Program-made: the position numbers and the translations under genes
The notes under the pieces: generated by a model
What the model was told of the DNA's origin: nothing
Database searches by the model: none
What the model saw: only the letters and a program-made list of their open reading frames with translations
Part shown: piece after piece, positions 58,044-61,552 of the stretch
Position numbering within the stretch: the first letter of the stretch is position 1
Layout: each line of letters starts with the position of its first letter
Origin: Pseudomonadota bacterium
GTDB taxonomy: Bacteria > Pseudomonadota > Alphaproteobacteria > Acetobacterales > Acetobacteraceae
Length of the DNA: 64,000 bases
Assembly (NCBI GenBank): GCA_021805565.1
Contig: JAJZFA010000033.1
Span: 1-64,000 of the forward strand
Direction: 5' to 3'

Positions 58044-59150
58044 TCATGCAGCCGCGGGTTGACGATCCTTGACAACCTGGTTCCGGCCGCCGCGCTTGGC
58101 CCTGTAAAGCGCATCGTCGGCGCGGGTCATGACCTGTTCGATGGACCCATCCGATTCCTGCTGTACCGCCAGACCGATGCTGATGGTCATGGGAATCAAC
58201 TGGCCGCCAAACATCAGACCTCCACCGGCCACCTGGGCGCACAGGCGTTCGGCCACTGCGTCCGCCGCTGCCGGCTGGGTGCCGGTCAAGGCGATCGCAA
58301 ACTCCTCGCCGCCCAGGCGTCCGAGAAAGTCGATGTCACGTATGTCATCGCGTAGCGTGGCCACAAGGTATTGCAGCGCATAATCGCCGCCCGCATGGCC
58401 GAACCGGTCGTTGATGGCCTTGAAGTGATCTACGTCGATCATCAGCACCACAAGCGACTGCCCCGCCCGCCGAACCGATTCGAATGCTCGCTGGGCGCAT
58501 GCGAGGAATTCCCTGCGGTTCAATGCACCGGTCAGGCCGTCCGTCGTCGCCAGGACACGCAATTTAATTTCCAACTGCTGCCGTTCGGCGATCTCGTTTT
58601 CCAATAAAATCCGGGCCTGCTCTGCCTTCTGGGCGTTTTCGGCCGCGGTTTCAGCCAGCGAAACCAAATACGATGCCTGATCCTCCAACACCTCGGTATT
58701 AAACCGCAGTTCGGCGTTGACCCTGACCACTGCGTCCGACGCTTCGCGGCGCAATTCCAGGGAGATGTCGGTGTACGTCAGAATACGGCCACCATCGGCG
58801 CAGGCAACGCACTGAAACAGCATGCGGCGGCGGTCGGCGAATTCGATCACGACCGGCGGAATCGAACCAGCGCGTATGGCACGCTCCCGGGCGTCCAGAA
58901 ACGCCGGCAAATCCGCGGCGGGGACATCGTACCATTCGTTGGCGCCGCCATGATCCAACAGTTGACGCAGTGTCGGCGGCGCTATTTGCAAAATCGCGGG
59001 CAATTGCCACAGCTCGGCAAACCGCCGGTTGACAAACCGGAGACGCATATCGGAATTGAACAGAATAATGGCGAAATCCACCACATCCAACGCCTCCGCC
59101 AGAGCAACATTCAGGACTTCGGGAGGCTCATCGATAAGGATACACGGCAT
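58044..59150 (-). CDS. PAS-GGDEF diguanylate cyclase
   Basis: A 368-residue signalling protein. Residues about 15-140 form a PAS domain (DFAIILFNSDMRLRFVNRRF), followed by a coiled coil (about 150-195) and a GGDEF domain with active-site GGEEF at residues 280-284. The RDID motif five residues before GGEEF is the product-inhibition I-site. It should make cyclic di-GMP in the cytoplasm. There is no EAL domain. The gene lies alone with a long gene-free stretch upstream. Confidence 0.93.
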   Translation of the reverse strand: MPCILIDEPPEVLNVALAEALDVVDFAIILFNSDMRLRFVNRRFAELWQLPAILQIAPPTLRQLLDHGGANEWYDVPAADLPAFLDARERAIRAGSIPPVVIEFADRRRMLFQCVACADGGRILTYTDISLELRREASDAVVRVNAELRFNTEVLEDQASYLVSLAETAAENAQKAEQARILLENEIAERQQLEIKLRVLATTDGLTGALNRREFLACAQRAFESVRRAGQSLVVLMIDVDHFKAINDRFGHAGGDYALQYLVATLRDDIRDIDFLGRLGGEEFAIALTGTQPAAADAVAERLCAQVAGGGLMFGGQLIPMTISIGLAVQQESDGSIEQVMTRADDALYRAKRGGRNQVVKDRQPAAA

Positions 59151-59544
59151 ATTTGGATGGTCCCGCCTGGATTCGAGTTTGCGCGTCCGCTGGCCGGCCG
59201 CGCGCGCCAGACAATCTGCCGAAATAATTAATATAACGTAAATCCGCCAGAAAATGGCTTGGCCAAATGAAATTTATTATACCGACAGCCTGCTCCTGTC
59301 CGGCCGACGGCGAACAAACTGTCGATAAAATTTTAGGTCAGAATGATTTTTTGGCGATTTTGCCCTTTGTCGATTTGAAGTGCGCGGCGATTTCCCCTCC
59401 CCTTTTCCCGGGGGGCCGACCGTGAACGTCGGAAAGCCAAAATTGTCGCAGCTGATGGGTTGCGTGCCCTGGAGCACGTTCGCTCGGCGCGTCGCGCATC
59501 GTCGTGGCGACTACGATCTGCGATCATGTCGCCGCATAAATTCT
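59151..59544. other. Gene-free region upstream of the GGDEF gene
   Basis: No coding sequence is supported. The first 150 bases are AT-rich and should include the GGDEF promoter on the minus strand. From about 59400 several small hairpins occur (CCGAC...GTCGG, GTGC...GCAC, GTCGC...GCGAC), leading into the stronger hairpin array at 59545. Confidence 0.45.
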
Positions 59545-59664
59545 GGGGCCGCGTAGGCGACCCCGCCCAGCCACCGTTTGGTGGCTCACTTCCTACAAGC
59601 CGCGTCAGCGACTTGCCTGCCGCTTCGAGCGACCAACATTTAAAGCCCCCGGCTTTGCCGGGGG
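59545..59664 (+). ncRNA. Candidate structured RNA or IS200/IS605 right-end (omega-RNA-like) remnant
   Basis: Four hairpins lie in a row. 59545-59564: GGGG C CGC GTAG GCG A CCCC. 59569-59586: AGCCACC GTTT GGTGGCT. 59597-59614: AAG C CGC GTCA GCG A CTT. 59646-59664: CCCCCGGC TTT GCCGGGGG, flanked by TTTAAAG and ATATTTAC. The first and third share the same plan with a C-A mismatch. The last is very like the right-end hairpin of IS200/IS605 elements, which forms the 3' end of TnpB guide RNAs. There is no tnpB, tnpA or other transposase near. Alternatively, the last hairpin is a terminator for the minus-strand thioesterase at 59767, which ends about 100 bases away. The strand is assumed. Confidence 0.35.
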
Positions 59665-59766
59665 ATATTTACTGTTTCGCTACGGAGGTTTTTGAGCAGC
59701 CTGCCAGATTTTTCCCTGAGCGGGCAGCTTTATCGGCGTGCTGACACATTTATTGCCGATGCCGCC

Positions 59767-60240
59767 CTAGCCCGGCAGCACGATCTTCCGTCCCGCGCCC
59801 CTGGGCAGCGTTTTCGGCGCGTGGTCAGTGACCGCCTGCCGTAACGCGGTAAATCTGTCCGGCGGAAATGGCGCCACGCGCCGAACCCCCATGTCGATAT
59901 GCAAGGCCAGAATTTCCTGCGCGGCAGATCGTTCGCCGCTTCCGGTATGGAACATTTCATGAAAATAATGCAGGCGCTTGCTGTCGGCACCCAGCAGCCA
60001 GGCGCGAACCCGCAGTGTGTCGCCAAGCACGACCTCACGTTCGTACAGCGTGTGGGTTTCGGCGGTGAAGCAGGAAAATCCCGACGCCTCGCGATAGGCG
60101 TCGCCGATCCCCAAAGCCGCATACATCGCGTCGGTCGCCAGATCGAAGACCACCACATAATAGGCGAGATTGAGGTGCCCGTTGGAGTCTATCCACTCCG
60201 GCCGGACGACCGCCTCGTATTCGACGATGGGTTTACTCAT
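59767..60240 (-). CDS. Acyl-CoA thioesterase, hot-dog fold (4HBT)
   Basis: A 157-residue thioesterase-like protein, most similar to betainyl/carnityl-CoA thioesterases. RPEWIDSNGHLNLAYYVVVFD matches the 4HBT active-site motif (the acid in WIDSNGHL), followed by LYEREVVLGDTLRVRAWLLGADSKRLHYFHEM. It hydrolyses an acyl-CoA. The ATG at 60240 was chosen; one a few codons upstream (60255) is possible. It is divergent from the CaiB gene, with 139 bp between starts. Confidence 0.85.
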   Translation of the reverse strand: MSKPIVEYEAVVRPEWIDSNGHLNLAYYVVVFDLATDAMYAALGIGDAYREASGFSCFTAETHTLYEREVVLGDTLRVRAWLLGADSKRLHYFHEMFHTGSGERSAAQEILALHIDMGVRRVAPFPPDRFTALRQAVTDHAPKTLPRGAGRKIVLPG

Positions 60241-60379
60241 GATGCGACGCACCATGTTAGGGGCGCGAGCGTCGGTCAAGTCGCATCCTGCGCTGCCGGT
60301 TCCGTGGATGGCGGCTGCTCGCCTCGACCGGCCGGATGGTTTCGTGGCAAGATGCGGTCCCGGAGAAAAGGATGCACGC

Positions 60380-61552
60380 ATGACAACAGGCCCCCTGTCC
60401 CGCTTCAAGGCGATCGATCTGACCCGCGTCCGTGCCGGCCCCACCGCTGTCCGGCAGTTGGCGGATTGGGGCGCGGACGTCATCAAGATCGAGTCGCCCG
60501 ATGGAGACGCCGGCCTGGGCGGCGAACGCCACGGACCCGATTTCCAAAACCTGCACCGCAACAAGCGCAGCGTCACGCTGAACCTAAAGGCGCCGGAAGG
60601 CGTCGCGATCATGAAGCGTCTGGTCGCCAAATCCGACGTCGTAGTGGAAAATTACCGGCCCGACGTGAAATTCCGGCTGGGCGTGGATTATGAAAGCCTG
60701 AAGGCGATCAATCCACGCATTGTGTATGCCAGCATCTCGGGGTTCGGGCAGGACGGACCGTATCGCGATCGTCCCGGCTTCGATCAAATCGCGCAAGGCA
60801 TGGGCGGATTGATGTCGATCACGGGCGAACCGGGGCGCGGCCCGATGCGCGTCGGCATACCGGTGGCCGACCTGACCGCCGGAATTTTCGCCGCGATGGG
60901 CATTTTGATCGCGCTGCTGGAACGGGAGCAATCCGGCCAGGGCCAATGGGTAACCAGCTCGTTGCTTGGCGCCCAGATTTCCATGCTGGATTTCCAGGCC
61001 GCGCGCTGGACCATTGGCAACGAAGTGCCAGGACAGGCCGGCAACAATCACCCCACCAGCATCCCGACCGGCGTTTTCGCGACCAGCGACGGTTACATCA
61101 ACATCGCCGCGGCGGGAGACGACATCTACCGCCGTCTGTGTAAAGCACTGCAAGCGGAACATCTGTTAACCGATCCGCGTTTCGTTACAGGGGCAGTCCG
61201 GTCGGACAACCGCGACGCCTTGAACGCGGCGATCGAGGCCGTGACCAAGACCAAAACCTCCGCCAGTTGGATCGAACTGCTGAACAAGGCCAGCGTCCCC
61301 GGCGGGCCGATTTACAAAATGAACGAAGTGTTCGCCGACCCACAGGTGAAACATCTGGGCATGACGCGAACCGTTACGCAAGCAGTGCTGGGCGACGTGG
61401 AAGTTGTCGGCCAGCCGATCGAACTCAGCCGCACGCCCTGGAGTATCCGTACAGCGGCGCCCGAACCCGGCGAACACACCGACGCGATTTTAGCCGAACT
61501 CGGATACGGTTCGGCGGAAATCGATAAACTGCACGACGCCAAGGTGGTCTAG
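60380..61552 (+). CDS. CaiB/BaiF CoA-transferase family protein
   Basis: A 390-residue class III CoA-transferase, which moves CoA between acids. N-terminal FKAIDLTRVRAGPTAVRQLADWGADVIKIE and SISGFGQDGPYRDRPGFDQIAQGMGG are the family's signature; the catalytic aspartate is in the GFDQIAQ segment (about residue 138). The ATG at 60380 has GGAGAAAAGG upstream. With the thioesterase and SDR around it, it fits a small acid or carnitine-like pathway (inference). Confidence 0.92.
   Translation: MTTGPLSRFKAIDLTRVRAGPTAVRQLADWGADVIKIESPDGDAGLGGERHGPDFQNLHRNKRSVTLNLKAPEGVAIMKRLVAKSDVVVENYRPDVKFRLGVDYESLKAINPRIVYASISGFGQDGPYRDRPGFDQIAQGMGGLMSITGEPGRGPMRVGIPVADLTAGIFAAMGILIALLEREQSGQGQWVTSSLLGAQISMLDFQAARWTIGNEVPGQAGNNHPTSIPTGVFATSDGYINIAAAGDDIYRRLCKALQAEHLLTDPRFVTGAVRSDNRDALNAAIEAVTKTKTSASWIELLNKASVPGGPIYKMNEVFADPQVKHLGMTRTVTQAVLGDVEVVGQPIELSRTPWSIRTAAPEPGEHTDAILAELGYGSAEIDKLHDAKVV

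Follow-up and report, generated by a model that had tools for sequence, protein, structure and literature searches.

The window is a stretch of 64,000 nucleotides (positions 1 to 64,000 of contig JAJZFA010000033.1, assembly GCA_021805565.1) from an alphaproteobacterium of the family Acetobacteraceae. A hairpin array lies in it between two minus-strand genes, one for a PAS-GGDEF protein (58047-59150) and one for a 4HBT thioesterase (about 59767-60240). Accessory hairpins 1 (GGGGCCGCGTAGGCGACCCC, 59545-59564), 2 (AGCCACCGTTTGGTGGCT, 59569-59586) and 3 (CAAGCCGCGTCAGCGACTTG, 59596-59615) all fold and are read on the plus strand, as are the array features that follow. The hairpin 1 motif recurs within hairpin 3 at 59599-59612, and the common motif of 14 bases is 86% identical between the two. 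Accessory hairpin 4 (GCCGCTTCGAGCGAC, 59619-59633) is decayed, with one broken pair and a weak fold; its usual form in relatives is GCCGCTTTGAGCGGC, which is kept there with compensatory changes. An AAAG at 59642-59645, by position and sequence the likely right guide tetranucleotide, stands at the foot of the terminal hairpin, CCCCCGGC TTT GCCGGGGG (59646-59664), a putative TnpA binding site by homology. Directly 3′ of this hairpin is ATATTTAC. A TTAC at 59669-59672, identified as the right cleavage site by comparison with the empty site of a relative, forms the last bases of the element, and the first flanking base past it is a T (59673). A preliminary description had counted four strong consecutive hairpins in this gene-free stretch; all four are present, but the decayed hairpin at 59619-59633 is a fifth that the count had missed.

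The array is strongly structured as a whole. Its RNA (59530-59700) folds better than 200 of 200 dinucleotide shuffles on either strand (z -3.45 and -5.38), and the plus-strand DNA fold of 59528-59672 also beats 200 of 200 (z -3.85). Taken singly, hairpins 1 and 3 are unexceptional, with 19 and 8 of 200 shuffles, respectively, folding equally well. The terminal 19-mer, allowing three or fewer mismatches, has no second site in the window except its own reverse complement.

Other repeats lie on both sides of the array. To the left is a truncated copy of an IS4-type element, with the left end and the beginning of the transposase (DUF4372 + DDE_Tnp_1; 59293-59527, plus strand); it is 76-79% identical to longer copies in two relatives (G009 and G028); the G009 copy encodes a 347-aa transposase with both domains. 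The IS4-type matches extend to 59530-59536, so that the junction with the array fragment is inexact. To the right, a palindromic repeat of about 50 bases (GGGCAGC..ATCGGC..GCCGAT..GCTGCCC) occupies 59717-59766, directly after the thioesterase stop codon. This repeat has 39 matches at E 1e-5 in its own genome (window copy included), which occur singly or in tandem with a spacing of about 63 bases; no match turned up in 32 further genus genomes. It looks like a species-specific REP-type family. A search with a broader query gave 54 matches, and the 53 others are this repeat at the right edge of the query rather than the array. The array itself was considered as a REP and rejected: the REP rule described in PMC6006769 is a high copy number with GTAG/GTGG at the hairpin foot, and the array has one copy in the genome and an AAAG foot.

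Right ends and the parent element

Searches of the own genome and 58 relatives reveal that window positions 59528-59674 match a repeat that several genomes of the genus carry in many copies. Strong similarity ends at 59672-59674, and sequence further left matches something else. The fragment (59528-59672, plus strand, left boundary uncertain by about 8 bases) begins just past the tnpA stop, ends with the right cleavage site and shares 82-85% identity with right ends that occur in multiple copies in G027 and G007. A 27-base end pattern has an exact match in 7 of 33 genus genomes (own included), and one of the relatives (G029) holds 27 right ends and 27 left ends at two or fewer mismatches. The sequences flanking several of the G029 copies agree with Rhodopila globiformis DSM 161 records, so that the window probably comes from a Rhodopila-like genus. 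In a public genome collection, the end pattern occurs in at least 119 stretches from several phyla. A plasmid DNA search with 59280-59690 gave eight records, all with the right end only.

The gene content of the parent element is evident from the stretches upstream of these right ends. Among the matches listed, 52 right ends have at least 700 nt upstream, and 25 of the 52 have a TnpA N-terminal motif within 800 nt; for 23 of these 25 (again among the matches listed) the left-end hairpin lies in the same stretch. A tnpB gene is about 1.2 kb long by the size given in PMC7290912, and these 23 stretches, with left hairpin and tnpA within 800 nt, therefore leave no room for one. TnpA of this type, taken from one relative, belongs to Pfam Y1_Tnp (PF01797, E 1.4e-38). 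The motif is absent from the other 27 of the 52 listed right ends. A TnpA C-terminal piece was recognized in 6 of 18 such loci read by eye (L108, L120, L123, L134, L181, L190), and the remaining nine of the 27 are isolated terminal hairpins or fusions. No TnpB was found near the 27 motif-less loci among 20 Pfam-scanned ORFs, from a list of 102 ORFs of at least 150 aa that shorter TnpB remnants would escape. Two of the 102 have a zinc-ribbon-like cysteine spacing and were identified as other proteins. The surroundings of the right end in L185 are a remnant.

A plasmid search by TnpA, which involves no selection for hairpins, led to the same type of element. It gave eight relatives (L294-L301), annotated as IS200/IS605, and an accessory and a terminal hairpin lie 3′ of tnpA in seven of the eight; L300 is truncated there. 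The ends vary: L297, L298 and L301 are without the GGATAY-TTAC tail, L295 has AATG at the hairpin foot, and a ninth plasmid relative, from Collinsella, has different ends. One of the eight is ISMex34 of Methylorubrum extorquens (L294), which has the Y1 transposase, left hairpin, accessory hairpins, AAAG foot, terminal hairpin and TTAC of the parent type; compared with it, the window copy consists of the last 145 bases only, with no left end and no tnpA. On pDCA-1, a plasmid of Achromobacter, a transporter gene is disrupted by the element; the gene is uninterrupted in Delftia and in three Variovorax records. Comparison with the Delftia empty site puts the length of the element at 664 bp; it follows CTAG and ends in TTAC, with no target duplication at this one site in one relative (prefix 180 + suffix 207 = 387, overlap 0). 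Its only ORF of at least 60 aa is tnpA, with 143 aa.

The preliminary description had likened the final hairpin to the right ends of IS200/IS605 elements and called for a comparison with them. The likeness is borne out: related genomes carry the same right end in multiple copies, in many relatives it lies 3′ of an IS200-type tnpA, and the end falls exactly at TTAC in the relative with a known empty site. The array is very probably the 3′ part of a tnpA-only insertion sequence of the IS200/IS605 family, of which the window copy is a remnant. Intact copies have the order left target (CTAA-like), left hairpin, tnpA, accessory hairpins, guide tetranucleotide (AAAG), terminal hairpin and TTAC. The subterminal hairpins are near-identical at both ends of parent elements, and the window copy retains the right one only. 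By analogy with IS608 and ISDra2, a TnpA dimer would bind this near-identical pair of hairpins, left and right, while the DNA is single-stranded, the guide tetranucleotides would select the cleavage sites, and the element would move as a single-stranded circle that leaves no duplication behind.

Details of the right end can be compared with IS608 of Helicobacter pylori as described in PMC5934647. Both have a hairpin with a 5′ guide tetranucleotide and a cleavage tetranucleotide, which in the window are predicted. AAAG/TTAC is the guide/cleavage pair at the left end of IS608, whereas it stands at the right end here; IS608 uses GAAT/TCAA at its right end and carries tnpB, which the bounded relatives here do not. 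The same source reports that IS608 disfavours purines just past the right end. Among 28 distinct flanks (28 of 42 pattern matches), the first base past the right end is T in 20 cases and C in the other 8. Judged from its sequence, the window right end looks intact as a substrate, though accessory hairpin 4 has a broken pair.

The own genome (G000) contains one right end, which is that of the window, two left ends on other contigs (C38 and C58) and no complete copy; besides the array itself, no further array copy was found there at better than E 0.05. Because this genome holds only pieces, the parent was inferred from relatives. The C58 copy has an intact tnpA, 90% identical to the query, and is cut right after that gene; the TnpA of this genome matches PF01797 (Y1_Tnp) at E 1.4e-36. 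The C38 piece is cut within tnpA. The window copy has neither left end nor tnpA and abuts the IS4-type fragment, which agrees with the decayed element that the preliminary description had offered as one option. Its statement that no tnpA lies near the array also holds, the sole tnpA match in the whole genome (E 1e-5 or better) being on another contig. As a supplement to the remnant reading, the window fragment and the C58 piece could derive from a single element that a chromosomal rearrangement broke in two. The C58 copy stops right after tnpA, and the window copy begins about 16-20 bases further along the element, at the first 3′ hairpin; however, the sequences beside the two breaks have no obvious match, and the C38 piece implies that several copies were once present. 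We regard this split as possible, if rather doubtful. Right of the truncated tnpA on C58 (L197:1940-2090) there is also a long palindrome made up of ATACCAACCGGCGGAAAGGATG and, after a gap of a few bases, its complement; it is possibly another repeat family.

Guide-RNA, trans-mobility and terminator readings

The preliminary description had taken the terminal hairpin as the possible 3′ scaffold of a TnpB guide RNA, and a guide-type RNA retained for another use was among its options. A retained omega RNA of this kind would have its guide past 59672 and its nuclease encoded elsewhere. A structured right end is indeed present, and the ISDra2 reRNA, which according to PMC8612924 also includes about 16 nt of adjoining sequence, comes from the right end of an element of the same IS family. 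Unlike ISDra2, the parent here has no tnpB: the same right end in relatives goes with tnpA alone. The own genome has no TnpB match by PF01385 or PF07282, two models whose controls were positive in 7 of 14 and 6 of 14 genomes; this negative covers the full copies with tnpB that had been proposed for a search and extends to the whole genome the reported lack of tnpB around the array. Rfam gave no support to either option. At the gathering threshold the only match in the window is a tRNA far from the array, with nothing at the array, and a scan of 59150-59900 with E up to 10 gave seven matches, all below gathering scores. A sigma-70 pattern search of 58900-60500 revealed no plus-strand promoter-like site. 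Neither the scaffold claim nor the retained RNA is supported by these results, and we consider a guide RNA at this locus extremely unlikely.

A copy moved in trans, another option of the preliminary description, would be an ends-only (PATE/MITE-like) element mobilized by the C58 TnpA. The genome does have an intact tnpA, and the window right end retains hairpin, guide and cleavage site; but the left end is absent, the left neighbour being the IS4-type transposase, and both left-end pieces in this genome lie on contigs other than that of the window. Nor did a search of the own genome reveal the window piece a second time. Lacking a left end, the window copy was rejected as a MITE, and its movement in trans is very unlikely. 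The PATE-like element of Halanaerobium described in PMC7290912 is likewise a hairpin-ended remnant with no intact tnpA, but it has the hairpins of both ends and the window copy has one. The tnpA-only remnant remains the preferred reading. With the whole part from the left end through the tnpA stop missing, the fragment would be unable to excise or insert on its own, and by analogy with IS608 and ISDra2 the window copy is probably immobile.

The preliminary description had also asked whether the hairpin is simply the terminator of the minus-strand thioesterase gene that ends at 59767. The terminal hairpin lies downstream of this gene and the minus-strand fold is strong, and isolated hairpins of the same type are found elsewhere directly 3′ of ORFs (L085, L161, L170, L193). 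Against an origin or co-option as terminator, the minus-strand tail is CTTTAAAT, with no T tract, and a pattern scan calls the terminal hairpin on the plus strand only; the scan gave 3 terminator-like sites where 1.7 are expected. The palindromic repeat at 59717-59766 also intervenes between gene and hairpin. Beside the best-matching thioesterase genes in 28 other genus genomes the hairpin (two or fewer substitutions) is absent from all 29 stretches, for loci that are best matches at 65-82% identity, matched by the thioesterase side only, with some stretches cut by contig ends; the extra stretch (L293) comes from G001, which also contributes a closer match. A terminator is thus unlikely, lacking both a T tract on the strand of the gene and a counterpart beside the gene in relatives, though the hairpin may act in termination as a side effect. 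Even if real, such a side effect does not explain where the hairpin came from.

In the four isolated cases just named, the terminal hairpin stands without an array and the end of the pattern falls 35-45 nt downstream of the ORF (a small sample with no control). They look as though they had been recruited as gene terminators or had inserted into them.

Accessory hairpins and variants of the family

Covariation among the accessory hairpins was assessed with an alignment (A1) of 44 rows, made up of 37 hand-picked pattern matches and seven of nine plasmid relatives. The 37 were chosen from 61 non-redundant sequences among 114 matches listed with 75 nt upstream and the right-end foot. The alignment omits L300, which is truncated after tnpA, L302, whose ends differ, L139, which has no accessory hairpin, and also L056, L080, L147 and others. 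Over the 44 rows, pairing in the accessory hairpin next to the terminal one is kept in 94.7% of cells, and 4 of its 6 pairs show changes on both sides. The terminal hairpin is 100% paired, with both-side changes in 1 of 8 pairs, a value for which only the seven plasmid rows are a test, the search pattern having selected this hairpin in the other 37. The covariation score exceeded those of all 500 shuffles and all slid versions, which related sequences can do without structure.

The number of accessory hairpins varies among copies. One hairpin pair precedes the terminal hairpin in L200 and L053, and two pairs do so in L195 and L196, which suggests that the array grows by duplication of a two-hairpin module. 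For comparison, an element with tnpB described in PMC7290912 has as many as three hairpins at its right end. We tentatively propose, as a reading that is plausible but short of probable, that the accessory hairpins act as an evolving cis-element, which would provide an additional TnpA contact, a 3′ RNA or a shield against transcription from outside and would grow by two-hairpin duplication, with a fossil of one such array in the window. Nothing that treats the role of accessory hairpins was found in the literature by title or abstract.

Rearranged forms of the element also occur. Single hairpins that combine the left foot of the left end with the right side of the right end occur at G027:C7:19974-20005 (L050, L304) and in L086, L135 and L149, as if the element had collapsed between its near-identical hairpins in the manner of a solo LTR. 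Such hybrids were found in one of 33 genus genomes and, by eye, in a few of 109 copies among the matches listed. In two of these 109 listed copies (L170 and L186) the right-end hairpin is a perfect long palindrome (AGTAAGTATCCCCCGGCTNTGCCGGGGGATACTTACT), and in L139 an internal deletion fuses TnpA N-terminal codons straight to the right-end hairpin.

The window copy is a decayed right end of a tnpA-only IS200 element and as such is ordinary genome debris. Remnants of this kind can pass for structured RNAs because there are at least 119 such right ends and 27 of the 52 listed have no TnpA N-terminal motif. A hairpin-rich, gene-free stretch that resembles an orphan guide RNA is here the remnant of a TnpB-less element, which settles a tempting misreading, and the conserved accessory hairpin poses a small question in IS200 biology.
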